64,000 nt of DNA, from the NCBI RefSeq assembly GCF_033568475.1, contig NC_133120.1:93142151-93206150 (forward strand), in the 5' to 3' direction. This document shows, piece after piece, positions 2,140 to 64,000 of this stretch. This DNA is from Henckelia pumila. Lineage: Eukaryota; Streptophyta; Magnoliopsida; Lamiales; Gesneriaceae. The translations under genes and the position numbers were made by a program. The first letter of the stretch is position 1, and each line of letters opens with the position of its first letter. The notes beneath the pieces are model-generated. The model saw only the letters and a program-made list of their open reading frames with translations. It was not told the origin of the DNA and searched no databases.

Positions 2140-2580
2140 TTAACGACCTGTTGTTGCCTGAAGAGGAGGCAAGACAACCGTTTCTGCAGAATAAAAGAGC
2201 CCAGAAGTACGAAATAAACAAGAAATGAGGAATTTAACACAAAAACTAAAATTGGAAATTCTCCAGCAGAAATTAGCCTCGGAATCGTGATGCTTTGCTG
2301 GACATACAGAAGTTAGAGCCATGAGCTTCGAGGATTTGAGCGGAAATCCAAGCATTCTAGGTCGGAGGAGGAAATAACAGAGGCATTCGGCGGAGCTGGA
2401 GGAAAAAGCAATGGAAATGTCATCGCAACACTGAGGAGGACGAGATTCGGTGAGTTTGTTGGGGGAGACGGAGATGTAGAGAAAAGGGGAGACGATTTCA
2501 TGAAGAAGCGACAATGGAGACGGCGGAGGCACAGGAGGAGGATTTCGGTGGAATTAGATGTTACGGGAAAATGGGCTAGG
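2140..2580 (-). pseudogene. 5'-leader-like segment with open reading, source unknown
   Basis: On the minus strand, starting just inside the subterminal array, lies a CT-rich, relatively GC-rich stretch typical of a plant 5' UTR and first exon ('cctagcccattttcc', several ATGs). One frame is open for about 130 codons from near 2532 and another for 62 codons from 2501. Neither resembles a family I know. Its position against the transposon end parallels the leaders at 11690 and 19860 in the other two CACTA-type elements. From 2270 on it is repeated in the second contig (36931 on). Confidence 0.35.
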
Positions 2581-2595
2581 GTTGTGGTAGGAGAA

Positions 2596-2888
2596 TATTA
2601 ATATATTTTTAATAATAATAAATTATAAATATACAAAGCTTTTTAATAAAAGCGTTGTAGTATATTGTAAAAAAGACGGTCATAGACAACGCTTTTTACA
2701 AAGTGTTGTCGTATATAATAAAAAAACGCTTAAAGACAACACTTTTCAAAAAGCGTTGTCGTATATAATTAAAAAAACGCTCATAGACAACGCTTTTAGT
2801 TAAAAGCGTTGTCTATTAAAAAATAACAACGCTTTTTACAAAAAGCGTTGTCTTTTACGTGTTGTCTTTCACCTTTTTTGTTGTAGTG
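2596..2888. mobile_element. CACTA-type transposon, right end with subterminal repeat array (element 1)
   Basis: The segment ends in the TIR TTTTTTGTTGTAGTG, which reads CACTACAACAAAAAA outward, the signature of CACTA (En/Spm) elements. Inward lie about eight copies, in both orientations, of a motif built on AAAGCGTTGTC. They include a near-perfect palindrome around 2786-2813 (13-bp arms, 2-bp loop). Such arrays are the presumed transposase-binding region. The base after the TIR begins gypsy pol sequence, so the element inserted into that retroelement. The other end is left of the window, so the target-site duplication (expected TGG) cannot be confirmed. No transposase is visible. Confidence 0.75.
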
Positions 2889-2928
2889 TGGGGATTTTGT
2901 TGTTTATTGTGATGCTTCTCACCAGGGT

Positions 2929-4797
2929 TTGGGATGTATTTTAATGCAGAAAGGACATGTTGTTGCTTATGCTTCTCGACAACTAAAACCACATGAGGTT
3001 AGGTATCCGATTCATGATCTTGAATTGGCTGCTATCGTTTTTGCATTGAAAATCTGGAGACATTATTTATACGGCGAGAAGTTTGAAATCTTTTCTGATC
3101 ATAAAAGTCTGAAGTATCTATTCTCACAATCTGAATTGAACATGAGACAACGACGATGGCTTGATTTATTGAAGGATTTTGATTGTGAAATCAAATATTA
3201 TCCGGGAAAATCTAACGCAGCAGCAGATGCCCTGAGTAGAAAAGTATGTGCTCTATCTTTATCTACTATAGGTGTATCTAATTTGATTGAGAATTGTTGT
3301 GTTTCTGGATATGTATTTGAGACAGATAGAAGGCCTATGAGAGTTTATGCAATCAGTGCTGAGCCAGAGTTGTTGATTCGTATCAAAGAAGCACAGAAAG
3401 CTGATCAGAATGTACAGAAATCGATTGAAATGATCAGATCAGGACATCAGTCTGAGTACAAGCTTAGTGACGATGATATCTTGTATGTGAATAACCGAAT
3501 AGTTGTTCCCAATATTGCAGACTTGAGACAGAATATCCTGAAAGAAGCTCATTGTAGTCGCTTTAGTGTTCACCCTGGAGGCAGAAAGATGTACAACGAC
3601 TTGAAGAGTCAGTACTGGTGGAAGCAAATGAAGTCTGATGTGACTGAATTTGTATCCAAATGTTTGAATTGCCAACAGGTGAAGGCTGAAAGAAAGAAAC
3701 CGGGTGGCTTATTACAAAGTTTATCAATTCCTGAATGGAAATGGGATCACATTTCCATGGACTTTGTAACGAAGTTGCCACGATCATCTCGAGGATGCGA
3801 TGCTGTTTGGGTGATCATTGACAGATTGACGAAATCTGCGTGCTTTATTCCTTATCGAATGACTTATCGTCATGATCAAATGGCGGATCTTTATATTCGA
3901 GAAGTGGTAAGACTTCATGGTGTGCCAAAGTCTATTGTATCTGACCGAGATCCGGGGTATACTTCGCACTTTTGGCATAGCCTACAGGAAGCTCTAGGTA
4001 CGCGTTTACATTTGAGTACTGCTTACCATCCTCAAACCGACGGTCAATTTGAACGAACAATTCAGACGCTTGAGGATATGCTTAGAGCTGTAGTACTTGA
4101 TTTTGGTGTTACATGGCAAAATTCTATACCACTCGTGGAATTTTCTTATAACAACAGTTATCAGACGAGTATAGAGATGGCACCATTCGAAGCGTTATAT
4201 GGAAAGAAGTGTCGATCACCTTTGTATTGGGATGATGTTTCTGAGGTACCTGAGTTAGGGCCAGATATGATCAGACAGATGACTGAAAAGGTGAAACTGA
4301 TACATCAGAGAATGAGAACAGCACAGCACAGACAGACCAGATATGCGAATGTACAACGACGGCCGTTATCTTTTGATCAGGGAGATAGAGTGTTTCTGAA
4401 GATTTCACCGTTCAGAAGCATCGTTCGATTTGGTAAACGATGGAAATTATCTCCGAGGTATATTGGGCCGTATGAGATTCTCGAGAAGATAGGCAATCTA
4501 GCTTATCGACTCGCTCTTCCTATGTCTTTATCTGGAATACATGATGTCTTTCATGTATCGATGTTGAGGAAGTACATATCTGATACATCTCATGTGATTC
4601 ACTCTGATGAAGCTGAATTGGATGACACTCTTAGTTATTTCGAGCAACCTATTCAGATTCTTGATAGAAATACGAAGCAACTCCGAACGAAGACCATTCC
4701 ATTGGTGAAGATTCAATGGAGTAGACACGGAGTTGAAGAAGCGACTTGGGAAGTCGAAGAAGATATGAAGCAACGATTTCCTTACTTATTTCATTGA
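2929..4797 (+). CDS. gypsy pol, 3' part: RNase H - integrase - chromodomain-like tail
   Basis: A 622-codon open stretch, fossil part of the element at 2889-6933. RNase H occupies about residues 1-105 ([37 protein letters not shown]). The HHCC zinc-binding region is near 205-255 (ending CLNCQQVKA). The integrase core lies near 268-430 with its acidic residues in [16 protein letters not shown] and [15 protein letters not shown] segment is near 500-520 (RYIGPYEIL), and a chromodomain-like end near 590-620 ([10 protein letters not shown]). The family inserts cDNA into host chromatin. The real polyprotein would start far upstream. The second-contig version is at 37551-39463. Confidence 0.9.
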
Positions 4798-4908
4798 TGT
4801 GAGTTCTTATTCAGATTTCAGTTATTTTTTATTCTTATGAGCATGCGGACTGCATATCTATACTGTTTATGAATTCGAGGACGAACTCATGTCTTAGTGG
4901 GGGAGAAA

Positions 4909-6933
4909 TGTAAGGCCCGGGATTAATTAGAAATTAATTCGAATTTATTTAATTTTAATCCGAGTATATTTAATTTGGGAATATTTAGAGTTTTGATTTA
5001 AATTCTAATATTCTTAAATTATTTAGGATTGAAATTGAATTAAAATAAGGGCCGAGGACCAAATTGCAATTATTGAAGAGTTGAGGGACCAAATTGCAAT
5101 TATCTTATAACTTATCAGATTTTAAGTTTATTAGTCAGCATGAAACGTGTACTTCATTAGATAATTCAGAATTATGAACAGAGGAATCGATTTCTTCCAT
5201 TTTTTTTTGAGTTCTTGATCTTCAAACCCTTATAACTTTTGCTCCGGGTATTGGATTTCGATTCCGAAAAGTGTTTTGGAATCCTTACGACGAGGGCTTC
5301 GATCTTGTGTAAGTTTTATGTTATGTTTTATGGATTTCGAAATTGATATGTGGCAAAGATCAGATTCTAAAATTTTGGAATTGTGCTTGGTGTTCTATCG
5401 TTTGAATATGCAACACCGGAATTGATGAGCTTATGTTATTGTGTCCAAATATGATCTCCAGCTTATGATTGTAGATTATAGCTATTTCAATGAAGATTTG
5501 AATGAGTTATATCAGCTGGTTTGTGAAATATATCTATAAGTTTGAATGATATTGAAAAGAGAAATGATTTCGAAGTCGGGATTACGTCGGTTACCGATTT
5601 TGAATCGCTACGTCGTTTAATCGAGTTTTGGAACTGTTTTGATAGCCGAATTCTGAGTTGAAGTTGTTATTGAGATGTTATCAATGTTAAAGAATGTGTC
5701 TTGTTCAATTTCATTCACGTTTGGAAGGCCAACGACACGAGACGCCGACTTTGAACGAACGAAGAAAGAGTTGAGGTTTGAAATGCGATTGATTGATGAA
5801 TTCTTGATGGTTTTGACTCGTTTCTGAAATGATAGATTGGTATGAAGTTTGATATATGTATTTTGATTATATCTCGCAGATTTGAAGAGTTCAGAACCTC
5901 AATAAACGAAGGTATAATGACAACATCGCGAAGTAGGGACTTTGAAACTCAAGAACGATTATCTTTGAGTTGGCCCGCAAAAATCACATACTTGTTTATG
6001 TTTTGATTTGATTGTGGTGTTGTCGATCCATCTCAGGTAGTGGATCTTTAAATTTGAGTTGATATGATGTTATATCGAATTGAATCTAAGCCAAGGTTGC
6101 GGTTAACCTTATTTGCGAGTCGTTTACGAATTCGTTAGATGGATATCCATGTCAAGATCATTTATGAATCTTGATGGCTTCGAAGTTATGTGAATCAATT
6201 CGTATTTAAAGCGTTTGAGTACTCTATTTGTTGAGTCGAGATTGAAATAGAGTTAATATGATTTATTTAACGTTTTCGATATGTTGGTTATACTGAGAAT
6301 TATATCTCACCGGAGTTTATCCGGCTGTTGTCTTGTTTTGTATGTGTGCATGACAACAGAGAGGGCAGGAGCTGATCATCGACGTCATTGACAGCTGGGA
6401 GAGAGTCTAGCACGTGAGGGCTCGGGTTGTAGATGATGTTTTGAATGTTAGAAGCATGGAACCTTAGAACTTGTGGGTTTTGGAATACATGTATGAAACT
6501 TGAGATAGATTATGTCGTTTATCGTTTCTTTAGCGACTTGTGCGATGTAATAAATTCATGTATAGATGCTTGAGACCTTGTTTATATTAATATGCATGAT
6601 TTGGATCTTTTATATCATGTTTTAGACTTGAGTTTGATGAATTGGAAGGAGTTGAAGGGATCGAATTTGCGGACAAAGAACAGGGCAATTTTCTGCTCCA
6701 GGAGGCGCCCCCGCGGTAATTTTTGACGGCTCGCGCGCAGCCTGGAGATTAGCCTACTGTTTTGGAAAAAAACAGGGGCGCCCCGCGGTAGTTTTTGGCG
6801 GCGGGGGCGCACCCCTTTTTGAAAAAAAAAAAAAATTTTTTTTTTTTTTAGATCCTTTCTTTCCTTATTAGTTTAATGATGCTTATTCATTAAATGCCCT
6901 TAAGATTTGAGATTAGCAACCCGAGGCCCCACA
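4909..6933 (+). repeat. 3' LTR of the gypsy element (about 2.0 kb)
   Basis: It begins TGTAAGGCCC right after the purine tract and ends GGCCCCACA. The termini form a short imperfect inverted repeat (TGT..GGCC / GGCC..ACA). Near 6690-6820 there is an unusually GC-rich patch with repeated GGCGCCCC..GCGGTA(A/G)TTTTTG units in otherwise AT-rich DNA. The 5' partner is missing, so the boundary rests on termini and purine tract only. Confidence 0.75.
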
Positions 6934-7084
6934 AGAAATATATATATATATATAAAATGGTTAAAAATTTAACTCTTTATCGTGAGTAATTCGGATAGTT
7001 TTATTATGCGTATCATTGCATTTATGAATTCTTTTGCAAGAATTGAACCAATCTTCATGAGATTGATTATTTTACTCATAGAGT

Positions 7085-7265
7085 AATTCATGTTTTTGAA
7101 TATAAATCTCATTTCATCAATTTATATTCCCCATTCTTTCTAAGGCATGTTCGGATGACTTGAAGTCATAAAATAATTCATGTTTTTTTAATATAAATCT
7201 CATTTCATCAATTTATATTCCACATGCTTTCTAAGGCATGCTCGGATGACTCGCAGTCATTTTCT
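7085..7265. repeat. Two-copy tandem repeat, about 90-bp period
   Basis: AATTCATGTTTTT-AATATAAATCTC ... AAGGCATG(T/C)TCGGATGACT recurs with a period of 90 bases (7085 and 7175). The second copy overlaps the 3' end of the caulimovirid RNase H reading. It may be a local duplication of the viral 3' region. Confidence 0.6.
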
Positions 7266-9243
7266 GGATCACTTATGATCTCTTTTGTTATTCTGGTACT
7301 ACGGATAGTATAATTTGGATGAAGTTCTCTAGTTAATGCGTCGGGTAATGAATTGTCCGTTCCTTTGACATGCTGGATCTCGAACTGATAATGGTTCAAT
7401 TTCAATTGCCATCTAATTAACCTTGCTGCATTTCTCCCTGCATTTCTTGATATTTTTTTTGTCTTGAAATATGTTAAATTCATATTATCCGTTCTTACTA
7501 AAAATGGTTTAGAAATAAGATAAATCTCATAATTTCTAATTGTATATCTTAAAGCTAATAATTCTTTTTCATTTGAATGATAATTTAGTTGTGCACCTTG
7601 AAAAGTTCCTGATGTATAATTACATAATTCTTCATTATTTCTAGTAGCTGTTTTAGTAAGTTCTTCTAAATTTCTTCTCATGTATAAGCTTTTAAACATG
7701 CTCCCCAGTATTCATCTGAGGCGTCTGTTTCAATTATTATTATGTCTTTATTTGAAGGAAAATATAATTCGGGAAGATTACTAATTATCTTTTTTTTAAT
7801 AGTGTCAATATAATTAGTATCTTCTTTAGACAAATTTCACTTATAGTCTTGTTTAAGTTTTACCTGAAGAGGTTTTCTGATTTCTGCAAGTTTCTTAATG
7901 TAATTTCCAGAATAAGTTAATAATCCTAAAAATCTTTTTAATTGATCTTTATCCTTGATTTCACTAGAAAAATCGTGAATTTTCTTAAGTATATGCTGTT
8001 GTAAACAATGTTTTTCATCTTCTATTTGTAATCCTAAATAATTTATTTTTGTTTTAAACAATTGTGCTTTCTTTTCAGAAAGTATAATTCCATCTTTATG
8101 ACAAATATCTAATACTGTCATGAGGTCTTTATAATGTTGATCTAGTGTTTTTGAATAAATTAATATGTCATCTATATAAACACAACAAAAATCTACATAT
8201 GATTTAAAAGATTCATTCATATATCTTTGAAAGATACCTGATGCTTGTTTAAGTCCGAAAGGTAATACAGTTCATTGATACTGTCCTTTTGGACAACTGA
8301 ATGATGTAAATAATTGTGTTTGTGGTTCTAGCTGAATTTGCCAAAATCCTGATTTACAATCTAAACTGGAGAAATATTTCATTCCTCCTATATAAGATAG
8401 TAAATCATTCTTGTTTGGGATGTAATATACATCCATAATTGTTGCATTATTCATTTTTCGATAATCAATTACCATTTTTTTCTTATCAGTGTCTTTTTTA
8501 CTGACATAAAAGGCTGGTGAAGAGTGTGGACTCTTGCTTGGGATGATTATCTTAAGTTTTAGTAATTCTTGAATCTCTTTTTCGAATATTTTTACATCAT
8601 CCATGTTGCATCTTCTTGGTGCTTCACAGATTGTGATATTAGGGTCTTTAAGTTTTATTGAAGCAATGAATTGTTTTCTTTTCTTAATTTTGTCCTGAGG
8701 ATTTTCAGAACAAATATCATGAAATTTCTTCATGATTTCTTTTTCATGATTAATTGTTAAAATATTTTCTATTTTTAGTTCTATTGGATTTGTATTTCGT
8801 TTATGAAAATTCTTTGTAAATCCTTCATTTTCTATACAAAATGTTGTTCGTATTTTAGGAATATAAATCATTGATGATCCTTTGTTTAAAGTTATGTGAT
8901 TTTCAAATTGTGTAAAAGGAAGATATTCTCTTAAAAAGTTATTTCCTATTATAATGTCCATTCCTGATTCTATTTGGTATATAATGGGTATTACAAATTT
9001 TGTTTCCTCAATTTCTATTTTTAATTTTTCTGCTACTCTATCAAGCATGATTCTTGATCCATCTCCTATTCGAACTTTTAATCCTTTATCATATTTCTTT
9101 CAATAATGATTTGGAAGTATATGTTTGCTTCCTAAACACATACTTGCTCCTGTATCAACATAAGCATGTATATGATGTTCTTTGATTTTAATTTGAATTT
9201 TTATATAAATACTATTTGGATTTGTTTTGTTTTTAGTATCCAT
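7208..9243 (-). pseudogene. Endogenous caulimovirid fossil: aspartic protease - reverse transcriptase - RNase H
   Basis: Old virus copy on the minus strand. Reading from 9243 down: an aspartic protease with DTGAS and IGNNFLREY..PFTQF, as in caulimovirus ORF V; a reverse transcriptase with SPHSSPAFYV, DCKSGFWQI and YIDDILIYS; and RNase H with NYHSNEKELLA and a C-terminal KGTDNSLPDALTRE. The order and motifs match Caulimoviridae, closest in style to genus Caulimovirus, not an LTR retroelement. Coat and movement protein genes were not seen. It is broken, with a few interruptions, and lies directly next to the gypsy LTR. Its age cannot be dated from one copy, but it is clearly degraded. The second-contig version is at 41875-43910. 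Confidence 0.88.
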
Positions 9244-9727
9244 TCTCTCACCTTTTTTTTTTAGTGATTTATTAGGAATTTTAATAGATAAGGGTAGAAT
9301 TGGTATTTTTAAACAAAATTTTCTCTCTGCGGGGAGTAGAAAATAAGTTTTAATGGGTTAGGTATTAAAATGTAAGATGAAAATAGGTTTGGGTATGAAT
9401 TTATAATTTACCCTTTAATTAACCAAGCCTAACACTACTTTATCCCTTGTAGAGTAGATTAGGTAGTTTTAGTAACAAGCCAACCAAACATTGGATTACA
9501 CAAAAATTCACCCATAAACCTACCTAATATTTTGTACCAAACGCAGCCATATATACGAAAAGTTATACGTTAAGTTACACATTGTACTTAAAATTACATA
9601 AATATCTTTTATGTATATTGAAATAAGTTTTTTTAAAATAAAATAGATTGATAATTTTATAATTTCATCTCTAGTCAGCGACGGATCTACAGTGTAGCCC
9701 GTGGCCCTCCGAAATTTTTTAGAATTC
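9244..9727. other. AT-rich intergenic DNA with partial MITE-like inverted ends
   Basis: No gene. Around 9340-9550 a diverged inverted pair is visible (GGTTAGGTATTAAAAT... against ...ACCTACCTAATATTTTGTACCAAACGCAGCC). The outer GGCTGCGTTTGGTAC is typical of a plant MITE end. A short hAT-like end (CAGCGACGGATCTAC) at about 9675 has no partner. Confidence 0.3.
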
Positions 9728-9730
9728 TTA

Positions 9731-10157
9731 CAGTGTGTTTGGATGTCTAAAAAATGAAATTTGGAATTGGATTTAGATTTGGAATTGGATTTGGATTTTA
9801 AAATCCATGGAATTGAAATTTCATTTTGTGTTTGGAAAAAAGTTAAAATATATTTTAGAATTTGATTGTATAAATTTTGGATAAATTATATTTTATAAAA
9901 AATTATTAAAAAAAACTTAAAATATATAAGTAAAGTATATGAATTTATTATTAAAAATAATTTTATTGCTTTATAAACTCAAATCCCGTGAAATCCCGTG
10001 AAATCCGACCAATTTTGTCAAGATTTCACTTAACTAATTGAAATCCCATGAAATCCCATCAAATATTTTGAAATCCCAAATTGCCAAACACTGAAACGGT
10101 ATTTTCAATTCCAAATCTCATCAAATCCCGTCCAATTTCCGTGATCTAAACACAGTG
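9731..10157. mobile_element. Tourist-like (PIF/Harbinger-type) MITE, 427 bp
   Basis: The TIRs are CAGTGTGTTTGGATGTC at the left and, read inward, CACTGTGTTTAGATCAC at the right. The 3-bp target-site duplication TTA is present at 9728-9730 and 10158-10160, which is the PIF/Harbinger preference. The interior is rich in diverged GGAATTGGATTT / AAATCCCGTGAAATCC inverted segments and has no coding potential. The second-contig version is at 44399-44825. Confidence 0.75.
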
Positions 10158-10187
10158 TTAGTATTATATATATTTTTTTGTGAATAT

Positions 10188-10215
10188 TGTGTGTGTGTGT
10201 GTGTATATATATATA
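10188..10215. repeat. (GT)n(AT)n microsatellite
   Basis: A short run of GT then TA dinucleotides directly before the tRNA-like SINE head. Confidence 0.9.
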
Positions 10216-10340
10216 GTTCGCATAATCAAGAAGTCGGAAGTTTTGCTTAGTTGGTAAAGTAATTGGAGTACTCTTGAAAGTTCGATTTTCAAGACCCACG
10301 GTTCATCTTTCTTTTTTTTTTTTCTTTTTTTTTGAGGAGA
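10216..10340 (+). mobile_element. tRNA-derived SINE-like element
   Basis: The A box is TTGCTTAGTTGG (about 10243-10254) and the B box AGTTCGATTTT (about 10280-10290), roughly 37 bases apart as in pol III internal promoters. T-rich runs follow, as in plant SINEs that end in short T tracts. The arms do not fold into a full tRNA, so it is not a tRNA gene. The tail boundary is uncertain. Confidence 0.5.
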
Positions 10341-10555
10341 TCTTTCATTTTGATATTAGCACTTTGTACTTTATTTTCAATTTTTTTTATTAAAAAATGG
10401 ATTATTTTATCAAGTGGGTTAATATTTTGTTAATGTAGAATATTTTTTATTACGTCAATTTTAATCTTTTATTATTGAATTAGCTTTTATTTAAGTGACT
10501 GAATTTCTGTCTTGCCTATTCATTGATATATTTCTATTTTTTTATTCATTGAGAT

Positions 10556-10676
10556 TATGTGTGACATGACTTATAAATCAAATCCAAAATTTTAAATTTA
10601 TATTCAATTATTCTTTTTGTATTGTAAAATATCTAGAAGAGTAATAAAAATAACTATATTTTCTAGCTTTAGATTA
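10556..10676. repeat. Diverged copy of the 3' flank of CASPL-B
   Basis: It matches 25440-25563 at high identity (shared AAATTTATATTCAAT, TTGTAAAATATCTAGAA and AGTAATA blocks), the sequence just beyond the stop codon side of CASPL-B. Together with 11234-11290 it looks like the two flanks of a third unit whose gene is gone. Confidence 0.55.
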
Positions 10677-10748
10677 AATTTTAAAATAAAGAGTAAAATG
10701 ACAAAAGTTTTAAGAAATTAATGCACAAATCACGAAAGAACAAAATGA

Positions 10749-11030
10749 TAATCTGCCTAAAAATTGTTAGCTCTGTCGTTATCGCATATTATCGCTATCT
10801 AATATGCGAACCCTCAAACTTATTGATGTAGCCAAAAATCACTTGTACCCAACACGATGTTTTCGCAAAGTGCGTAGTATCAAAAAATCTTTGTATGTTC
10901 TCCGTGGAGATCTTCAGTGGGTTGTTCCTACGTCACAAAACAATGTCAAAGGAGCCGGGAGAATTTTCGGCAAAGGCAATCCGACGCTCAAGTCAGTGAT
11001 AACTTAAGAAATAATAATCAAGAGTAGAGC
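10749..11030 (+). other. Repeat-like segment with a 67-codon open reading, not a gene I recognise
   Basis: The piece has a relatively high GC end (GGAGCCGGGAGAATTTTC... CAATCCGACGCTCAAGTCAG) and an ORF at 10804-11007. The CCGACGCTCAAGTCAG block looks like a dispersed plant repeat, but I could not search for it. No protein family is recognised. Confidence 0.3.
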
Positions 11031-11233
11031 GTTATAGTGCTAAAGAAAGTATGTATCTTAATAATGAGGTGACTTGAACTATTTATAGATAATTGAATAG
11101 TTTCACGGGCTTGAGTCTCTTATGAACTTTTGTAAAATTCAGGGTCTGCTTGAATTAAATATATATAATAATTAAATAAGTTTGAGACTTAAAAATATTT
11201 TAGGTGTAACCCATGACTTACCATATTGAATCT

Positions 11234-11290
11234 GCCCTAGTTTGCATGATGGCGTCTTATTTATCAAAACACAAGACTAAATTTTACAAT
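11234..11290. repeat. Diverged copy of the 5' flank of CASPL-B
   Basis: ATGGCGTCTTATTTATCAAAAC-CAAGACT here matches 28151-28190, upstream of CASPL-B, with few mismatches. It is the other side of the presumed third, gene-less unit. The CACTA-type element at 11328 lies directly next to it. Confidence 0.5.
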
Positions 11291-11349
11291 GTAAATTGAT
11301 CCAGATTGATCAAGGTGTGCCCATCGTCACTACACCAAATTGTGGTATC

Positions 11350-11640
11350 AACAACACTTGAATGACAACGGTTTTTTTGAAAAACCGTTGTCGTTTGGTC
11401 TTTAACAATGGTTTTCACTAAAACCGTTGTTGTTGGCCCTTTTTTAATGAAAAAAAACAACGGTTTTTTAAAACCGTTGTCTATGAGAATTTTTTTTTGG
11501 CCTACGACAACGGTTTTTATTAACCATTGTCTTTGAGTGGGTTTTTGGGTTCTACGACAACGGTTGTTTTTAACTGTTGTCTTTTTCTATTGTTTTATGT
11601 AGTTTTAGACAACACTTTTCTTAAACCGTTGTCTTTTCTT
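11350..11640. repeat. Left subterminal array of element 2 (ACAACGG / CCGTTGT motifs)
   Basis: About ten copies of GACAACGGTTTT and its complement AAAACCGTTGTC, often as inverted pairs that would fold into hairpins, with short spacers. Some copies are degenerate (AACAATGG, ACAACACT). Confidence 0.85.
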
Positions 11641-11689
11641 TTTCTTTTTTTTTAAACATATATATATTTAATATATATGTATACACATT

Positions 11690-12997
11690 TACCTACAAAA
11701 TCCCTAACCCAACCTCGAACTGTCGCCCCTTCAACCCACCCAGCTTCTTGATTCGATTCTTCTTCGCCTCCTTTCTCTCTTCCGCTCCCTTCCTTACGCC
11801 GCCGCCTCTCATCCTCACCAACCGGCCACTCCTCCAAGAAAATCGCACGCTCTTCACCTTCTTCTTCTCTCTCCACACTTTTCATGTCTTCAATTGATTC
11901 CTTCGAGGCAGGGGCTGCCCTGTTTTGGCTTGCTCCGCCTCTGCCGTAGCTAGGGTTTCGGTTTTACGCCGTCTCTTTGAAGATTTTAGGGTTTGTATTA
12001 CTATCTCCTTTGAACTAAGGTACTGCGGATCGTTCAGCGATGACTATGCAGGTTGGGATAGGGGTTTCGAGGATACTCCTCATCGTTGGAGCATGTATCT
12101 CTAGATTGTGCTTGTTTGTGTGTGTTTCTTTGTTGCAATTTTTATGTTTGAGTTTGATCCGACTTTTTGTGAGAGTTTTGGTTGATTTTATTTGGTGCAA
12201 TTAGGTTATATGGGAACCATACTGATGAAGAACGGGAAATTATCAGATGTATTGGGTGAACTACAGGTACTTGTTCTTCCACCTCTTTTTGTATTCTGAA
12301 TCCAGCTGTATACAGTGTACATTATTTGAAATAAATCTCTTCATTTACCTTGTTGAGCTTCTGTAAGCTGTGTGTATAATTTTTGTCGTGGAGTTATATT
12401 GTCTTTAAGTTGAGGTGAAAAAATTTGTGAATCTCGCAATACTTTTTGTGACCTACTTATTTAATTGTTTGAGAATTAGAAAGATACCGGTTACCCTGAT
12501 TTGTCCGATTTGGAGAAAAACTATATGTCCCCATAGTTTTGTTTTCTGATCTCTTATATCAAGTCAGTATTAAATTTAACTGAATTCGTTGATGGTCGTT
12601 ACAGTAGCTTGCGAAACGGTTTAGAATTGTTAACAAAAGCAGACCCACCTGGAAATTGAGCATCAATAACTCTTCGGTACTTTAAGTGCCCAATAAAAGA
12701 CTTCAATTTGGTTCATTTGTTGGCCTTTCATAGTCATTTATGATTCTTTAGACGCAAATTGGTGACCAATTAATTGATAAGACTGTTCTCATAATTTCAC
12801 GATGCTAACATGTTGTTATGAATGTCTTTTATGGTAAAGCTACCTTGTGCTGCAATCTATTCACTATACATGTCTTGTGTCGTCTACGTTTCACAGTTGT
12901 TTTCAAAGTTCTTTTGGCGTGTGTGTGGCAGAATCTAGTTAAGGGGATGGAGAAATCAGGGGAATCGGAAGGGGATTCTGAGGCAGTTGCTAGCCAG
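11690..12997 (+). pseudogene. Captured 5' part of a DUF1664-family gene (leader plus exons 1-3)
   Basis: A CT-rich leader ('ccctaaccc', 'gctagggtttcgg') is followed by three exons with good splice sites. Exon 1 is 12040-12094 (MTMQVGIGVSRILLIVGA), exon 2 is 12205-12266 (YMGTILMKNGKLSDVLGELQ) and exon 3 is 12932-12997 (NLVKGMEKSGESEGDSEAVA). The phases agree across both introns. This order and wording match the N-terminus of plant DUF1664 proteins, which are small membrane-anchored coiled-coil proteins of unknown function (usual start M-A-M-Q-x-G-L-G-V-S..., then KNGKLSDLLGELQ). The following VRRLAMEVRQLAS region is missing, so it is a fragment. Its promoter-proximal end sits right inside the transposon's left array, so it could be transcribed into a chimera. 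Confidence 0.75.
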
Positions 12998-13292
12998 GTA
13001 TACCGTAATTGATTGAGGATTACTCAAAAAGTTATTTTACTGTTTTTATTGTTCTTTTAAACTTTAATAATTTATTTTATGGTCTATTCTTACGTCCTAT
13101 TTCAATTGCTTTTGTATATCTTTTTGAGTGAAATAAAAAGAGAATTCTATCATTGTTACTTTTATGTCACTCCAATTTAATTGTTCTGTGAGAATTTATG
13201 CTTTCAAGTGCGATGGTTGGCTTTGGGCGTGGGAGATTTCTCTTTGCCTGGTGTATATTAGTTAATTGTACAGTTTTCTTTCTACTTTCTAG

Positions 13293-13430
13293 CATGGCAT
13301 GGGATAGTGTTACGATTATGAGAACGATGTGCGGTGGGCGGACTACTGGTCAAACGTGCTCCTTCCTCCTCACATGTCTTCCAGATCTGATGTCGATCAC
13401 TTCAAGCGCAAGTTCTACCAGCGGTACATT
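13293..13430 (+). pseudogene. Captured exon of a small conserved plant protein
   Basis: After acceptor AG (13291-13292) one frame gives YDYENDVRWADYWSNVLLPP followed by HMSSRSDVDHFKRKFYQRYI, then a donor GTATGC. The wording (RWADYWSNVL, HFKRKFYQRYI) reads like a conserved small plant protein, but I cannot name the family. The 5' end of the exon is not open in that frame (a TAG lies before YDYE), which fits a dead fragment. Confidence 0.5.
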
Positions 13431-13584
13431 GTATGCTCTTCTTTTCTTCATTTATTTTGTATTTAATTGATTTTATATATTGACATTCCTTTCGCAACTT
13501 GTTCTCTCTCACAACAATCTTTAAGGTAATAACTTTCCTCGATCCCATTGATATTAACTCATCACTGATTGATTGAATTTTAAG

Positions 13585-14093
13585 GTCGGATTCCTGAGTC
13601 TTTTGGGAGTCTAGCGCCCTTCTGGAGCTTGATCTCTCCTACAACAAGCTGGATGGCGGGATTCCTCGTGCTTTTGGGAATTTGATGTGATCTCTTTCTC
13701 ATCTTGATCTCTCCGAGAACATGCTTGAGGGTATTATTGTTATCTTATTTTGTTCCACAAGGAATTTGAATTTCAATTAATGAAAGGAAAAAACTAGGTT
13801 TAATTAAATTTAAGTTTTTTTGGAATACTGTAGCAATTGTTCTAGTTGATTTGAGATGTATTCCAATTATTTTGAAGGTCCGATTCCAGAATTTTTGGGA
13901 AATCTAGCATCTGTTCTGGAGCTCCATCTCTCCTACAACAAGCTAGATGGCAGGATTCCCGACTCTTTAGGAAATTTGGTGTCCCTTTCCTCTATGGATC
14001 TCGACGATAACAAGCTGGATGGTGGGATTCCTGATTCTTTGGGGAATTTAAGGTCTCTTTCTTATCTCGATCTCGCCGCTAACATTCTTGAAG
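13585..14093 (+). pseudogene. Captured leucine-rich-repeat fragments (receptor-like protein type)
   Basis: Two blocks, 13585-13730 and 13856-14093, encode plant-type extracellular LRRs of about 24 residues: IPESFGS..ALLELDLSYNK, then FLGNLASVLELHLSYNKLDG, IPDSLGNLVSLSSMDLDDNK and a further repeat ending LDLAANILEG. Both end at GT donors. This is the IP-x-x-L/F-G-N-L pattern of LRR receptor kinases and receptor-like proteins. The first block contains an in-frame stop. No signal peptide, membrane or kinase part is present. A further short trace (SNYFEGGI) is near 14195-14215. Confidence 0.75.
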
Positions 14094-14099
14094 GTATTT

Positions 14100-15417
14100 A
14101 TTCTTGAAAGTCTTTTTATTTCATTTTACAAACTAGGATTCGGGGGAAGGAAATATGATGTATTAATTAACATAAAATCTAAGTTGATGTGTCCTCAAAT
14201 TATTTTGAAGGTGGGATTCTTATGTGCTTCGACTAACCTTGCAGTGATAACCCTTCCAAATGAGCAAATCAAAGATTTCTTACAAGAAATCGATCATCAA
14301 TATATATAAGTACGTACTTCTTGTCATGTTGTTTGTACTGGAGGCTTCTTATGTGAAACATGGGACATCAAATTATGAGATAAAATTCATATTTCAACTT
14401 TGAGATATATATATATATTAATTATACTAAAAATTTGTGTATTAATTGAAATTAAAACTTGTCCTTATGGATCTGAATCGAAATACGGAGTGTTTCATGT
14501 ATCCTGGTGTATGGACCATCTACATCCTCATATTATTCTTCTCATGGCTGGTCGTACTCTCGGTCTTCTGGTGTTCTCCGGGCATGGCATGGACAATTGT
14601 TCATCTCTCCCATTTCGTCCTACGTTTCTTTGATTCCATTTTTTAAAATCTTTGGGTGGATTAATTTGTATGTGTTTGCGGATGCTTGTTTTAAATCTCT
14701 TGCAATTGATTGCTCGTGATGATAGGGAGTAGATGGGTGCTGATTTTGGTTTTCATAATTGCCGTGTATTTTTTTTAGAATCATCGATGAGATGATAAAT
14801 TTATAGATGTGTATGTTTCGTGTTGTTGGTATGCATAGTGGTTATCAAACCTGCGTAAAATGGTCGGTTTGTTTTTCCAAATATCAGTGTACTAGCTAAG
14901 CTTATATATATATATATTGATTTATTATGTGTAATTAATGATGTACCAGTCTAAAATCTCAGCAGATAAAAAAATTAATAAGATAGAAATTGGGCTGCTT
15001 GATCCAGCAAGTGCACATGTTCAAGTTGTTGTGTTTGGACATTGTGCATATTCTTTGAATTACGTTCCTATATATATATTAATTAATCAACTGTTAATGA
15101 CCCTCATCTCGAAAATCTTTCTCAACTTGCGCCTTTCGAGAATTTGATTGGCCAATAGGCATTTATTCTGAATGCATGCATGTAATTTACGCAGGTTCTG
15201 TATCTGGTTATTAATGCCTTTAGCACCTCTGTTCTCTTTCGCTTTTTGGTAATTATGTTCTATCTATTATGAACATGCATGATATGATGGCTAGTTCGTT
15301 GCTCTCACTCTGAATTCCCTCCTTTACCACCACCTAGGTAGAGTACATGATATAATAACAAGTGTATGAGAAGATTTGAAATGTACCTGTATTATTCATA
15401 TTATGAGACTGTCACAG
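14100..15417. other. Interior of element 2, no recognisable coding sequence
   Basis: Between the LRR and glutathione peroxidase pieces there are only short open readings of unlikely composition, AT microsatellites (14403-14420, 14903-14918) and intron-like DNA. Confidence 0.5.
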
Positions 15418-15823
15418 GTTTTGAGATATTGGCTTGCCCTTGTAATCAATTCTTGCATCAAGAACCGGGAACAAGCCAAGAAGCAGAACAATTTGCTTGC
15501 ACCAGATTCAAGGCCGAATACCCTATCTTTCAGAAGGTAATAATTCTGTGTTGGAAGTTTTTTTTCTTTAAAAAGATTGTTGGAATTTTAACATGCTTAT
15601 ATAATTGCATCCCCTGTTTAAATAGTGAAAACAAGATAGCGTCCGGGGAGTTCCGAGGCATAGGGACAGACAAATTTACAATTATATAAAATAACTAACT
15701 AAATTTAAAATTTTAATTTCAGAGCAGAGTTATATAGAACTTATATTCAGGGTTCCTGTATGACATGGAAATTTCCATACTTTCTTGCAGGAAGATATAA
15801 AGAAAGCACTGGGAGAACTTTAA
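15418..15823 (+). pseudogene. Captured glutathione peroxidase exons
   Basis: Exon 15418-15536 (acceptor CACAG, donor GTAATA) reads [20 protein letters not shown] then [19 protein letters not shown]. That is the second conserved block of plant phospholipid-hydroperoxide GPX (usually FEILAFPCNQF...EPG), which reduces lipid peroxides using thioredoxin. A second piece, 15791-15823, reads EDIKKALGEL and a stop, like the C-terminal end of the same family. The exon with the catalytic cysteine (VASKCG) and the WNF block are absent, so it cannot make an enzyme. Confidence 0.72.
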
Positions 15824-16421
15824 AGCAATGACATTCGGTAGCAGAATGAATAAAATCACTGCGTATAATGATTCCGCCTCGTTTGTTGTTTGATAGGGGA
15901 TCAAGGTTGTAGATTTTCTTTTTTCTTTTTTTGTTCAAATGATCAAAATTCAAATCTTGGGCTATGTATTGTCAGGCTTGTTTCTGCGAGTTTATTAGTC
16001 TAATAGGCAATATTTGCTCATCTGTTGCTTCCTCGGATTCCTTGTGTTATTCTTTCTTTCATTTAGCTGTTGCAACACCTATTTTGAGCCTATATGTACG
16101 TGCATGTTACATATCATTACATCTTTCTCGTATCAACCATGCATTTTTGTCTTCTATGTTTCGAGATCTTAGCTACAGTTTTCGTGGGTCAATTAAGATT
16201 TTTTTGGCTAATGTCCAGAGATAATGGTAGTCCCTACTATGAACCATTTGATCATGTCCTTTAACATGATGATTGACAGTTTTACATGTTACTTTTTGTT
16301 GTTTAATTAGTATTATTTAAATCTCTATGCCACTACAGCTACAATGTCTTCAAGGTTGAAATTAAGTTTCTTGGAATATTGTAGATGAATTAACTTGTGG
16401 CATGTTTATTTTTGGTTTCAG

Positions 16422-16787
16422 GGTCGTGGAACTGCACTGAAAGACATTCCAAAGGGTATTCATTTTTCATTAATTTCCTCATTTCTGTACCATGCAAGCA
16501 CGCACATCAAATTATCTTTGTCTCATGATGTCCAATTGGCTGCAATATTGTGATGTTGCTTTGCTGCACTACAACCATGTGTCATTGCATGTAAAAAAAT
16601 TTACTAAACCTAGTCTATTTACACAACAGAATTGAGAATTTTCTTATTCACTTATTATCCATGCCTTTTATTGAAAAAAATAATGTTGTTAACTTAGTGC
16701 ACATTTCATTTATTGTTTTGTTTCTAATTGTAAACAAGCCTCGTGCAGATAGTCGGGATGCAAGTTGTGCAGATAGTCGGGATGCAA
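16422..16787 (+). other. Unassigned exon-like piece and a 24-bp two-copy tandem repeat inside element 2
   Basis: 16422-16455 is an acceptor-to-donor block reading GRGTALKDIPK, source unknown. At 16743-16787 GTGCAGATAGTCGGGATGCA occurs twice with a period of 24. The rest of 15824-17070 is intron-like. Confidence 0.35.
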
Positions 16788-17074
16788 GGGATAATGGTGG
16801 ATGTTAATCTAGAAGGAATGTTCCGAGTTAATTATATAGATTAGTTCATAACTCAATGTATAGGAAAGTTCCGTGTTAATTTATATAGATTAATTCATAA
16901 CTCGATCGATATATTTTCTAGTGTATATTGATTTAGAATTTAGAATTAGAATATTGATTTGTAATATTGAAAAATTGTATATTAAATTTTATTTTAAAAA
17001 TTTTAATTTTTGTTTCATTTATAATATTAAAAATTTGTATATTAAAATTATTTTTTTTTGTTTTTTTTTCGAGC

Positions 17075-17270
17075 TACGACAACGGATAAAATCCGTTGTC
17101 TTTGTCATTTTAAAACTGTTGTAATTTTCGATGTTGTTAAAAGTTCTATATACGACAACGGATAAAAACCGTTGTCGTTTCAAGGAAAAGACAACGGTTT
17201 CAAGAAAAAGACAACGGATGTCTTTTGAAAGCAACGACAACAGATTATATCCGTTGTCGTATCCCGTTTT
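17075..17270. repeat. Right subterminal array of element 2 (ACAACGGAT / ATCCGTTGT motifs)
   Basis: Copies of GACAACGGATAAAA and its complement, in inverted pairs, with ACAACGGTTTC variants mixed in. The right array prefers ...CGGAT, the left ...CGGTT. Confidence 0.8.
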
Positions 17271-17283
17271 TGTTGTAGTGCGT

Positions 17284-19087
17284 TGAAGACCGAAACTGGA
17301 CGAGTTAAGTTGCAGTGATAGTATTTAGCGCCGTACCTGTGTCAGATGGGCCTGATGCGAAAGTAACAAAGTGGACCCTATTATTTGGGTAAATAATTGT
17401 AAAGTTTTGTTCGTAGATAACAAATACAATAAACAATAAATTAATTATTTCAAAAAAATAAAAATTAATATACCTGGAACAATATATAACACCAATAAAA
17501 AGTTAGCAAATATTTGAAATAATTACATAACTATATATTATCTGTCTAGCTGTTTTAGAGATGATAATATTTTCAAATCTATGTACAATAGTTGTCGGAT
17601 AATTTCTTTGTATATATAACATAGTTAGCTAGCTTATTTAATCTATCACGTGTCATTGTTGATCGAAAATAATTTTGATTAAATTCAATTTTGAAAAGAT
17701 TTTTTCTGCCGGTCAATTGTTATTGATATGTTTAATAAAATCTTATAGACAATATAAGTATTGTGAATAAATAATTCAGTTTTGTCAAACATTGTAGCAA
17801 ATCAATTGCTCTTTTTACATTTGATAAATCTCATCTCATGACCATCAACTTCGAACACAAATCATCATCATTAATGTCTTAATGTTAAATGTTAAAGCTC
17901 CACTTCATCAAACTAGTTAAAGATACATTTTTTAATTTCTTCAAATTTAACATAAATCCAAAAGTTTTTTAAATTATTTAAATTGTTCAAACCGAATGTG
18001 AAAAGAATATAAGTCTTAATCAATTACTAGTGCCACTCTGCACACATTGCGTGCTTTTAACATTAAAATAATTATTTAAATATGATAAAAAAAAATTTAT
18101 TTTCAAATCAATAAATTTTAACACTATTTTTTATTAAGAGTGGTATAACTATTTAAAAATTTATAAGTATAGATATGGATTTTAAAATACTTAAATAATT
18201 CAAATTTTGTGAAAATTGGATAATGTTACACCAAGACACCAAAAATTGTTACTTCAATGGTCTAATTCTTTATAAGATAATAATATAGATAACAGAAATT
18301 ATTGGAACAAAATTTTTTTATTTAATATTAATATTATACTAGATTTTTTTTTTCAATGCACCACTAAATCAACATATGTATAGAAATTTTTTTTTAAAAA
18401 AAAAATATTATTTTGGGCCCCTTCCAGGGCTTGGCCTTGAGTCGGAGGCCTCATTGAGCTCATAGATGTTACGGCCGTGATAGTATCCTCACTTTTCCAC
18501 TATCTGGACGGTGTCGCTTTTGTTAGAGTTTTATAAATATCATAGCCCATTTATAATTAGTTTTACGTGTGTTATTGTGCTATACAAACATTTTGGGCTT
18601 GCAAACTGCTGGTAGAGGGCCCAGTTTTGCCCATATAACAAGTCCGCCCTTGAATTGGTTTTACATATTTCACATAAAAATTGTGACAGCGTGTACTTGA
18701 AAACACATTTTATTATCTTCCATATATATCATAGTTTATATATCTCTGGAACAAAATATTAAATTTTGGTTATGCATGTAAGATATATTAAACGCTCGCA
18801 TGATATACTAATTACAATTTACATTAATCAATTCACAATTATATATAAGAACACATGACTTGTAGCTAGCTAGCAAGCAAAAGATTTCACTTGAATTAGT
18901 ACTCCTCGATCCCATACAAACAACATATATAAATATAAAGTAAACTACATAATAATAGACGAATACATGCATACATGATTCTTGCAAGTGCATAATATAT
19001 AGATCCACATTAATGAACAAGCTAATGTTCGAAACCACGAGAAATCGAAACCGAAAACGACATGAAATTATAACTTGAACCGATGGA
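17284..19087. other. Intergenic DNA, AT-rich, no gene seen
   Basis: Only short chance readings. A GC-richer patch (about 18410-18510 and 18590-18650, GGGCCCCTTCCAGGGC, AGAGGGCCCAG) resembles a degraded transposon end, but no partner was found. The last 250 bases are the 3' flank of CASPL-A. Confidence 0.4.
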
Positions 19088-25000: not shown

Positions 25001-25215
25001 TCATAACCGCGGGAAATGGTGGAAGCCTGCAGCTTCGCTGTCATCATCACTAACACGCCTGTTAAGCTTGTCGACGCACACAACAATCGGATCAACGCAT
25101 GCATGACGTCAGCTTTCCCGTACCCAGCCACCTCCTGGCCGCCGTTCCTCCGCCCACCATCCGCCCTCGTCTCAATGACCACATCCACCCCTTCTCTGGA
25201 CCCATTCCTCGCCAT
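19088..25215 (-). CDS. CASP-like membrane protein gene A (three exons; transposon in intron 1)
   Basis: Minus-strand gene. Exon 1 is 24992-25215, exon 2 19426-19561 and exon 3 19088-19270, giving an in-frame 180-residue protein. Start ATG 25215 (MARNGSREGV) aligns with paralogue B. Four membrane segments lie at about residues 38-60, 76-92, 113-130 and 148-176. The CASP-family Arg in TM1 (R43, HALIRLLCAS) and Asp in TM3 (D119, LFAADL) are kept. CASP-like proteins form plasma-membrane scaffolds; Casparian strip CASPs position cell-wall machinery. Odd points: an 8-bp GTACGTAC insertion relative to B truncates exon 1 and provides the only good donor. About 11 residues between TM3 and TM4 are lost, and intron 1 holds a 4.67 kb CACTA-type element. 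It may be expressed or decaying. Confidence 0.75.
19860..20130 (+). pseudogene. 5'-leader-like segment with short ORF in element 3
   Basis: A CT-rich stretch ('cttcttcaaccctagcc') typical of plant leaders starts directly inside the left array and leads to ATGGACGAATCGAGATCC, then a stop at 20128-20130. The open reading at 19816-20130 (104 codons) begins in the array and is not a recognised protein. Further exon-like blocks of unknown origin lie near 20690-20729 (ends at a GTATGA donor), 20836-20950 and 21312-21515. Confidence 0.35.
21935..21988 (+). pseudogene. Captured 2Fe-2S ferredoxin-like exon (NDH subunit PnsB3-like)
   Basis: A 54-bp exon with acceptor GATAG and donor GTAACA reads GKVINSGGAGSCGTCIVE. 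G-x-C-G-x-C is the cluster-binding loop of ferredoxin-like domains. The wording is closest to the plastid NDH-complex protein PnsB3/NDF4 (G-K-V-x-N-C-G-G-G-G-x-C-G-T-C), but a whole-protein comparison was not possible. The next cluster cysteine region is absent. Confidence 0.5.
22203..22494 (+). pseudogene. Unidentified open exon-like segment in element 3
   Basis: About 97 open codons with protein-like composition (VLVHGDGFTTFILNSPGFFS, VPHYYRHSLLVLQRATNN), then TGA. A second open block follows in another frame (22500-22612, INFGDIVDGFCPKDQSLTA). I do not recognise either. The second contig lacks one G of a GGGG run, which closes this frame there. Confidence 0.35.
22731..22891 (+). pseudogene. 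Captured HDR / IspH exon (4-hydroxy-3-methylbut-2-enyl diphosphate reductase)
   Basis: After acceptor TTTCAG one frame gives KENGYKYSWGNVNVKLAE then TYGFCWGVMRAVHIAYEAR and KQFPNK. This is the N-terminal block of plant plastid HDR, where YGFCWGV carries the first cysteine of the Fe-S cluster. HDR makes IPP and DMAPP in the last step of the MEP pathway. The 5' end of the exon needs a frame change in a run of A, and only this one exon is present. Dead fragment carried by element 3. Confidence 0.75.
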
Positions 25216-25297
25216 GATCTCACCTTTTCTTTCTTTCTTAGTTTCTTTGGTTTGAATGAAAAATGGAGTGCAATGCATTATTGGAGGGCTATGAAGT

Positions 25298-25308
25298 TAT
25301 ATATATAG
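25298..25308 (-). promoter_or_regulatory. TATA box candidate of CASPL-A
   Basis: CTATATATATAA on the minus strand, about 85 bases before the ATG at 25215. That spacing would give a leader of roughly 50 bases. Confidence 0.45.
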
Positions 25309-25349
25309 TACATTTTCGGCTAGCTTTTGGTTTTAAACAGAGGGAGTGA

Positions 25350-25355
25350 CACGTG
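25350..25355. promoter_or_regulatory. G-box / ABRE upstream of CASPL-A
   Basis: CACGTG inside GAGTGACACGTGGCA, about 135 bases before the ATG. The same 13-15 bases are kept upstream of CASPL-B although the surrounding DNA has diverged. ACACGTGGC is the classical bZIP-bound ABA-response element. Confidence 0.5.
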
Positions 25356-25439
25356 GCATATATATTTACAACATTACGTGAAATTAAAATGATGGGTCCG
25401 TATAACTGCTCTTAATGTTTTTTTTTTTCAAGTGAAGAA

Positions 25440-25563
25440 ATGATTTTATAATTATGTGTGAAATTAAATCAAACCCAACTTTTTAAATTTATATTCAATC
25501 ATTGTTTTTGATTTGTAAAATATCTAGAAAAGTAATACATATAACAATATTTTTTGGCTTGTA
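25440..25563. repeat. CASPL-B 3' flank, related to 10556-10676
   Basis: Marks the boundary between CASPL-A's upstream region and CASPL-B's downstream region. The adjoining AGCTAGCTAGC..GATTTCACTTGAATTAGT (25560-25600) is shared with the 3' flank of CASPL-A at 18860-18900, so the tandem unit includes downstream DNA. Confidence 0.55.
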
Positions 25564-25756
25564 GCTAGCTAGCTAGCAAAGGATTTCACTTGAATTAGTC
25601 ATCCCATACAAACAACAGATGTAAACCAACTAAAAGAACATAATAGACTAATACATGATTCGTGCAAGTACATAATCCATCCACATTAATGAACAAGGCT
25701 AAGTTCGAAACCATGAGAAAATATTGAAACCTAAAACGAAATGAAAACCGAATCGA

Positions 25757-27644: not shown

Positions 27645-27649
27645 GCAAA

Positions 27650-28656: not shown

Positions 28657-28659
28657 TTA

Positions 28660-60424: not shown

Positions 60425-62209
60425 TCAGTGCTCCGATAGCCACGCAACATCAAGAACCACAGAAACAGCAAGCAAGAAGCAGCTTAAAAACGTCAAGGCT
60501 ATGGCCACAGCAACATGATCACAGAAAGAATGCAAGGGCTTGCAGAAATCCGGAAGGTCCGAATGACGGATCCCTGTTCGGTTCAAGTTCGTCACGCCTG
60601 ATGCAGCTGATCCTGCACTCATCATAGCATATGCAAACATCTGCATCCATGAATATACATATACGTTACTTTAATTTACTCATATCATTTTTTTTTTTGT
60701 AAATGTATAGTGTATAATTTATATATCGTGCCTAGAAATTAATCAAGGAAAGTACTCGTGTTTCAATGAAATTGAGACACATCTGCACCAACATAATAAG
60801 CAAGAGCCTCTCACTATAACCACTGTTGGTTTGGCATACATTAATTTTAATTTCCTCATCATAATATCTTTAATTATTTTAAACAACAAATCAACATTTG
60901 ATATTAAAATATAATTATAATGTACATGCATAGCGTGGGAGGCTTTACTACAATATATATTACCTGATCTGCAGCAAAAATGAGCCATGCCTGATTCCTA
61001 GAAGGAATGATGGGAGGTTTGCTCAACATTCCCCGCAATTTTCCGACCAATTGAACCAATGAATGAAATGCCACCACGCCACATACTCCCACCAGATACC
61101 TGATTATTATGATTATTATGTCAACACAAAATTTACATTACTCAACTACTCTTTTTCATCCATTTCTTGTTGCGTTTTCTCCTTAATTAATTTGCACCAT
61201 ATTTAATTTTTAAAGATTTCAAGTTTAACAAGGTACACTTCAATAATGAATCATATATAGTAATAATATAGCCATATATATATATATAATGATCAGCTAG
61301 CGCCTAGTACGTGTTTATATTCCTTACTTTTGTGGCTATTTGTTTTGAAGGAGAATATAAATGGAATTTCAAAAGATAATTAAAGTGGATTCACGGGTTC
61401 TTGTTTTTATACACTCTGGTGTATGGCGTTAAGAAAGAGGGCCCTTTCCTGACTTCTGTCTCCATATTATAACAAGGACAATTTCGTGATGAGCAAATAA
61501 ATTGACATAATGGTATCATTAAAAAAAAAATAGGATTAAGACACCAATATATAATCTTAATTATACAAACACATCGATTTCGTATTTATTACGACTTTTC
61601 TAGTTTTATCACCACTCCCAGGTCCCGTTGCATGAATGAAAATGAACCCATGACCAATATTCACCCAGTACTCAAAATATAATTTCCCACTGGACTTTTC
61701 TGTTTGTTTTTTTTTTTTTTTTATGTAAAAACTCAAATTATAATATAACTTAAACCAAACAAAAACCTTAAACCAAACAGTACAGGATCGGATGCATATG
61801 GTACAAGGCCTTTTCGTACGTACCAAATTAATTAAGGTGTATATATTATGTTGATAAAAAAATTGGAATTATAATTTTGTCGAGTGACAAATTAGCTAGT
61901 TTGATGCCAAAAAAAAAAAAAAAATTAAGAAACATACTCGAAGGAGTCGGAGAAAGACCACTGGGAATCGACGGGGATGTCGAAGCCGTAAAGGGAAATG
62001 GTGGAAGCCTGCTTGGCTGTGATCATCACCAACATGCCTCCCATGCTTGTCAACATACACAACCACCGGATCAACACATGCATGACGTCAGATTTCCGGT
62101 ACCCAGCCACCTCCTGACCGCCGTTCCTCGGCCCACCGTCCGCCCTCGTCTCCGTCAGCTCAATTACCACATCCACCCCGTTTCTGGACCCATTATTATT
62201 CCTCGTCAT
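60425..62209 (-). CDS. CASP-like gene B, second-contig copy (intact frame)
   Basis: Exons 61938-62209, 60964-61099 and 60425-60640 total 624 bases and read through in frame to a 207-residue protein. Exon 3 here is 216 bases (72 codons with stop) against 217 in the first contig, so this is the better version of the gene. Four membrane segments with R48 and D135 as described at 25757-27542; the C-terminus is TM4 followed by LSEH. The ABRE/G-box lies at 62306-62311. Confidence 0.87.
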
Positions 62210-63325
62210 CTCTAACCTTTTCTTTCTTTCTTAGTTTCTTTTGGCTTGAATGAAAAATGAAGGGGACTTAATTGTATACATTTCCGGCTAGTTTTTGGGG
62301 AGTGACACGTGGCAAATATGGGAATATCTAGGTTCTAGTTTTTACAACATCACGTGAAATTAAATTATATATGAATTAATTATACATTGTAAATCATGAA
62401 ATGGGTTTTTCAAATAAAGTGGACAAATTAAATAATTTTGAGTAAAGATGTATTCCTTGACTCCATAAGAATTTCGTTTATTTTTATAAATCAATCACGT
62501 ATTCTATTTGAAAATTCATATACACATATGAAACGTGAGAAGAATGGAAAGCTAGATTTGAATTGCATTGTGCAGGCGGTCCAAATTTAACAAAAACTTC
62601 AACTTATCATGTACGTAGTCCATAGTTTAATTGGGCCGATCCAACACAAAGATTAGTGGGTCGTGGGTAGATGTGAGTTGTGACCTTAAAACTCACACTA
62701 ATTAATCCCATATTGGCCCGACTCATACGGCACAACACCACAGCTCTAGGCCCAGACGCGTCATGTAGACATTCAAGATAAGCTTCTTCAATAAACAGAA
62801 CATCAAGACTCAAAAAAATGGCGTCTTATTTACCAAAACGCAAGACTCTACTTTTCTTTATGTTAATCAAACATCATAAATCAGCTATCAGTAAAAAAAT
62901 ATATATATATATATGAGAGTTTTAGTGTAATGCTTCAAATTCGACGATTATCCCTACGATATCAAAACGAGTCTTTTCAGCATGCTCGTGTCCTCGTTCA
63001 CATTCACCCTCAAAAACTTATCCGGGAGTCACTCATCCTGTAACTACTCCAAGTCAAGCACCCTTAACATAAATTTCTTAAGAGAAGAGCTATAAAAAAA
63101 AATGCATCTTCTTAATATGAGTAGTATCTTTCATATAGTTTAATCCCTCCTCAACCGTGAAGTTCCATGTCAACACAATCTCAGAATCCCTCTCATTTCA
63201 GTACGGGATAAGTTCATTCATATCTTCTTTCTCTTATAAGCCTTCCAGGAGCCGCCCAATATTGTCCTTGCAACCTCTTGGCACCTATCACTACTCGCCC
63301 TCGTCACCCCCGGGCGTCAAATTTA

Positions 63326-63635
63326 GTTTCCGTTTGGACATATACTTTAAAAATATTTTCAGTATTTTATATGTGTGAAAAACTTAGAGTATGTGTTTGG
63401 ATAATTTTTTGTAAAATGTTTTTGAAAATTTGTTCTTAAAATATAGTTTTTAATTAAAGAACACTTTAAAGGCGTTTTTAGAATTGCACCGTGAAATGAA
63501 AATATGAATAACATTACTTTTGAAATGCTAAAATATTTTTATAAAATAGTTGTTCGAACACATATTTATTCTTAAAATATTTTTTAAAATATTTTATAAA
63601 AATATTTTAAAAAATGTGCATGTCTAAACGAAACC
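63326..63635. mobile_element. Tourist-like MITE (TSD TTA), second-contig copy
   Basis: Copy of 28660-28969. Confidence 0.65.
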
Positions 63636-64000
63636 TTAACAAAATATCACGTTTTTTTTTTTTGTTATTAAATTTATAAATTATGAAGAAGTTGAAAAAA
63701 AAAATCAGATCTATATTGTTTGAAAACAAAAATGACAAGTTGAAAATATATTCAAAAGCTGGTAATGTTTGATAAATATATGGTTCTACTGACTTTTATT
63801 AGAATGATCCATAATTTTGTCGGAGCATACCAGTATCCTAGCTACTAGCTTTTGGATTTCGAATAAACTAAGCATATGTTAATTTATTGTGCATAATCAA
63901 GGTTCAAAAAAACACATAAAAATTATTATTTCAAGTCAAAAACCAATAATCACCTTTTTTTTTCTTTTGGCAATACATGCACGAAACTAAAATATTAATA

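Follow-up and report, generated by a model that had tools for sequence, protein, structure and literature searches.

The window (the whole stretch of DNA analysed, 64,000 nucleotides, C1:93142151-93206150) holds parts of two nested transposons, pieces of an endogenous virus, leucine-rich-repeat coding sequence and a GATA zinc-finger gene. It belongs to an assembly of 884.7 Mb in 133 contigs, four of them large (183, 201, 204 and 234 Mb, 822 Mb together). For alignment, 20 kb to its left and 30 kb to its right were added, positions left of its first base being given as negative numbers. Throughout -19999..94000, as in the window itself, there is just one run of N, the scaffolding gap. Coordinates of the features are collected in the table.

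The Ty3 LTR retrotransposon of which the window has the 3′ part is, as a whole, at -7505..6934, with its 5′ LTR at -7505..-5262, and its two LTRs are 99.0% alike. Within its pol region sits a second element, presumably of the CACTA family, and copies of the Ty3 element elsewhere are uninterrupted at the point of this insertion. The left edge of the repeat described below, position 2270, is inside the CACTA-type element and so is straddled by the Ty3 element also; in the left contig both elements continue through it unbroken. Pfam domains identified in the segment are the Ty3 integrase and RNase H, a caulimovirus-type peptidase and the GATA finger, a set that points to a plant. The peptidase belongs with a reverse transcriptase and an RNase H, in three separate frames, to an endogenous plant pararetrovirus present in broken pieces at 7208-9099 and 41878-43766 (both on the minus strand); their double count is an effect of the false duplication argued for below.

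At 12900-14400 there is leucine-rich-repeat coding sequence (the Pfam match is in the right copy, at 48519-48773), and its relatives are many and clustered at C1:105.39-105.54 Mb. Between 18856 and 27592 are several older paralogous segments, 78-86% alike (for instance 25011-25265 with 27326-27592), and their similarity suggests small true local duplication.

Table. Features of the window, with their continuations beyond it (coordinates count from the first base of the window)
Feature	Position	Strand	Remarks
Left flank	1-2269	+	-2606..2269 recurs in the unplaced contig C38, where it forms the final 5,000 b and 2269 corresponds to the last base
CACTA-type transposon, 3′ part	1-2888		Whole element -2321..2888, with 3-b target duplication TGG, within the Ty3 element; ends read in the sequence
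Left copy	2270-36830	+	Tail of the left contig to the last base before the gap; aligned to 36931-71327
Ty3 LTR retrotransposon, 3′ part	2892-6934	+	RNase H, integrase, chromodomain; 3′ LTR 4689-6934
GATA zinc-finger gene, exon sequence	32831-33425	-	Frame broken in the left copy; open for 215 codons in the right copy, at 67497-68141
Stretch of raw-read-like quality close to the left contig's end	33300-35549	+	Mirrored at -2300..-1001, where the errors are in C38
Scaffolding gap	36831-36930		100 N
Right copy	36931-64000	+	Extends past the window to 71327 (C1:93213477)

Extent of the repeat

The first-pass annotation, made on the window, had 27 kb to the right of the gap repeating the sequence from 2270 onward with order and orientation kept, and alignment bears this out: 2270-29335 (27,066 b) and 36931-64000 (27,070 b) are collinear, share their orientation and are 99.897% identical, with 27 gap openings and not one mismatch. 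It had also predicted that the repeat would continue past 64000 as the counterpart of 29336-36830 and would stop near 71,500. In the fetched sequence the match does continue, to 71327, which is opposite 36830, the last base of the left contig; the stop is at 71,327 rather than at ~71,500 because the left copy (34,561 b) is 164 b longer than the right (34,397 b). The extended alignment consists of two blocks, 2270-33958 with 36931-68602 (99.78%; 11 substitutions, all at or beyond 29386) and 34005-36830 with 68604-71327 (95.1%; 17 substitutions), between which 46 bases of the left copy are unaligned.

One locus is thus present twice on one scaffold, in the same orientation and with a gap between. 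The match ends at the last base before the gap and begins at the first base after it, both its boundaries there being contig boundaries. For each of two probes from within the repeat the two copies are the two best matches in the genome, the next-best being 73% over 515 of 1,221 b for the first and 97% over 1,318 of 1,501 b for the second, and a chance origin of the match is out of the question. The right flank beyond 71327 has no second copy, as a 1,501-b probe spanning that edge matches in full length at one place; the end of the left contig is matched too, at 97%, by the first 528 b of the probe.

The unplaced contig at the left edge

A probe from 1500-2700 matches, besides its two known places, an unplaced contig of exactly 50,000 b (C38), at positions 49231-50000, and as far as 2269 the identity is 100%. 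The portion of C38 that was read is 5 of its 50 kb, and this last 5 kb is collinear with the left contig at -2606..2269, 96.3% alike, with most of the differences in one bad stretch. Joining the last 200 b of C38 to the 200 b just right of the gap reproduces the left contig across 2269|2270 with no base lost or gained. Very probably, C38 was once the first 50,000 b of the right contig and was severed from the rest.

Since the last base of C38 directly precedes the repeat, and C38 carries the right contig on into the left flank, the left edge of the duplication would have been made by cutting the right contig. The first-pass reading, that the end of the left contig overlaps the start of the right contig and that the two were placed end to end, remains the best one and its prediction of a continuation held, but the right contig does not naturally begin at 36931, C38 joining there. 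Similarly, the 34.6 kb predicted for the overlap describes the duplication in the scaffold (34.4-34.6 kb), while the real overlap, with C38 extending the right contig leftwards, is ~39.4 kb.

The same join is strong evidence against a real tandem duplication, ~34.5 kb long and very recent, whose junction happens to coincide with the assembly gap. The sequence around the gap would indeed look no different in that case. However, C38 and the right contig together run from the left flank through a single copy to the right flank, so that contigs through the locus do not have two copies and the right contig would have to be collapsed as well. At the junction itself there are 100 N rather than contiguous sequence, though ordinary long reads should cross the junction of a real array and no gap would be expected. 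The edges also lack the homology needed for unequal exchange, the best match between them being 83 b at 67% and the breakpoints sharing 0 and 1 b.

What made the cut is suggested by the sizes of other unplaced contigs. Among the 17 examined, 10 have round sizes, from 10,000 to 127,500 b and all multiples of 2,500, which accords with a Hi-C misjoin editor that cuts in bins of fixed size. Alternatively, the left edge could be due to trimming or clipping, done manually or while overlaps were removed, and clipping of contig ends is known in similar pipelines (purge_haplotigs, as described for Plantago ovata; PMC9883528). Yet the piece removed here survives as an unplaced contig, exactly 50,000 b long, and the round sizes of many unplaced contigs suggest fixed-bin cutting more than alignment-based clipping; we regard trimming or clipping as an unlikely source of the edge.

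That all 50 kb of C38 repeat the left flank is unsupported: two probes of junctions, at ~-12,020 and -7,506, match in full length on C1 only, with no full-length match to C38 among the best 40 of 2,467 and the best 40 of 4,086 candidates respectively. With a probe from the LTR region, C38 is not among the best 40 of thousands of candidates. In the part of C38 that belongs to the Ty3 element, 45001-45284, a copy on C2 matches as well as the left contig does (99%). From these matches C38 probably leaves the locus further left. An editor may have cut the right contig there because of a misjoin close to its position 45,000, where there are a Ty3 copy and sequence of poor support. Further out, a probe from -18,000..-16,800 matches C38:31597-32797 at 98%, in a Copia region and ~2 kb off the collinear place; it might represent an allele or a chance copy, or else point to a misjoin.

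Differences between the copies

Between 2270-29335 and its right counterpart 28 single-letter length differences were counted. With the part left of 2270 taken from C38, the comparison covers -262..29335 (29.6 kb) and gives 32 length differences and 0 substitutions. The extra bases are unevenly shared. In the first half of 2270-29335 the right copy has 13 and the left 4, and in the second half the right copy has 3 and the left 8 (p 0.019 for the contrast between halves). Extra bases are mostly in whichever copy is nearer the end of its own contig, and they increase toward two bad stretches that mirror each other.

The first of these, -2300..-1001, has 119 differences per kb, with 118 extra bases in the right contig (C38) against 3 in the left, and 34 substitutions. 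Compared with a related copy on C6, the left contig matches there at 98% and C38 at only 90%; therefore it is C38 that carries the errors. The second, near the end of the left contig (33300-35549), has 63 differences per kb; here the left copy has 114 bases that the right lacks, the right has 5 that the left lacks, and there are 22 substitutions. In the remaining left tail, 35550-36830, there are 14 differing sites per kb (13 extra bases left, 5 right). These rates leave the 46 unaligned bases of the left copy aside. Over the whole of 2270-36830 MAFFT gives 194 bases extra in the left copy, 30 extra in the right and 53 substitutions, its counts in the bad stretch being somewhat different.

A yardstick for true divergence is at hand in the LTR pair of the Ty3 element at the left edge, an old duplicate in which 2.2 kb of alignment contains 19 substitutions but just 3 gap openings. 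The spectrum of differences between the copies departs clearly from that of the LTR pair (Fisher p 5e-11), and by this comparison the differences look like sequencing error. Reading frames are broken reciprocally: the left copy has the Ty3 frame of 636 codons intact, whereas in the right copy it is interrupted, and the converse holds for the GATA gene. Together with the mirrored gradient of errors, this shows consensus quality to be unequal between the copies.

For a true tandem duplication, zero divergence in 29.6 kb would simply bound the age (upper bound ~1e-4 per site), but differences that are error-like and track the ends of contigs are not what it would leave. With these, the C38 join and edges without homology, it is rejected as very improbable.

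The two contigs might otherwise represent the two haplotypes of a heterozygous plant, i.e. heterotype false duplication. In -2606..-2301 C38 and the left contig differ by 4 substitutions without length differences, and the far-left part of C38 may be an allele or another locus. Nevertheless, such substitutions as exist are in or beside the two error-rich tails, and over -262..29335 haplotype-specific variants are absent, as judged on the assembly sequence. With 0 substitutions over 29.6 kb this origin too was rejected, the chance that it is correct being very slight.

Origin of the duplication and comparable cases

The duplication is almost certainly false: two overlapping contigs of one locus were placed end to end, after the front of the right one had been cut off as C38. 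Two contigs would cover one stretch of the same chromosome, with the left one stopping at 36830 and the right one originally starting ~50 kb left of what is now 36931 and running through the stretch into the right flank. The first 50,000 b of the right contig would then have been cut and kept as an unplaced contig, probably by the misjoin correction of a Hi-C scaffolder (of the 3D-DNA type, as we infer), and its remainder set after the left contig with the standard 100-N gap and the overlap unmerged. The tails of raw-read quality may be why the overlap was missed.

Genes, transposons and the endogenous virus fragment in 2270-36830 are each counted twice in the assembly, and the artificial doubling of genes that the first-pass annotation had proposed is thereby upheld. 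As each copy has frames broken by errors, annotation would list false gene copies and, in addition, false pseudogenes. Claims at this locus of recent tandem duplication, of growth of a gene family or of gain in copy number would be wrong. The join with C38 illustrates that unplaced fragments can settle a case of false duplication from the assembly alone, without reads.

Tentatively, misjoin correction may itself be able to create clean-looking tandem duplications, when a contig is cut within an overlap, its front is discarded as debris and the right piece is left to start at an arbitrary bin edge. This possibility, to which we would give rather less than an even chance, would have the pattern recur at other gaps of the assembly. 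If it is true, duplications of this making could be found without reads, from round-sized unplaced contigs whose last base adjoins the start of a repeat at the side of a gap.

In kind this is an ordinary assembly error, and in all features tested it fits the published class of ‘homotype’ false duplication at contig boundaries (Rhie et al. 2021, PMC8081667), its peculiarity being that a cut forms one of the boundaries. As that class is described, the likeness extends to a locus present twice in tandem, a gap between, contig boundaries, unequal consensus quality and a main part without haplotype differences. Gaps between copies are, with low depth, also given as hallmarks of false duplication by Ko et al. 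(2022, PMC9516828). Unlike the homotype duplications as described, the second copy here starts at a cut inside a contig, and the front survives as an unplaced contig of 50,000 b. The usual homotype size is put at about that of a corrected read (PMC8081667), and the overlap here, ~34-39 kb, may exceed a typical one.

For the cut there is a counterpart in the threespine stickleback Y, where, by the published account, the 3D-DNA misjoin editor removed parts of contigs flanking gaps as debris that could be matched back to their contigs (PMC7368989). There as here, a contig part beside a gap was removed and could be traced to its contig. However, the stickleback debris is described as centromere repeats missing from the scaffold, whereas the end of C38 is sequence already present in the neighbouring contig. 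The need for a merge step after overlapping contigs have been set side by side by Hi-C is shared with the Aedes aegypti assembly AaegL5 (PMC6421076), though the undercollapse there is attributed to alternative haplotypes, and here, as far as is visible, a single haplotype is involved.
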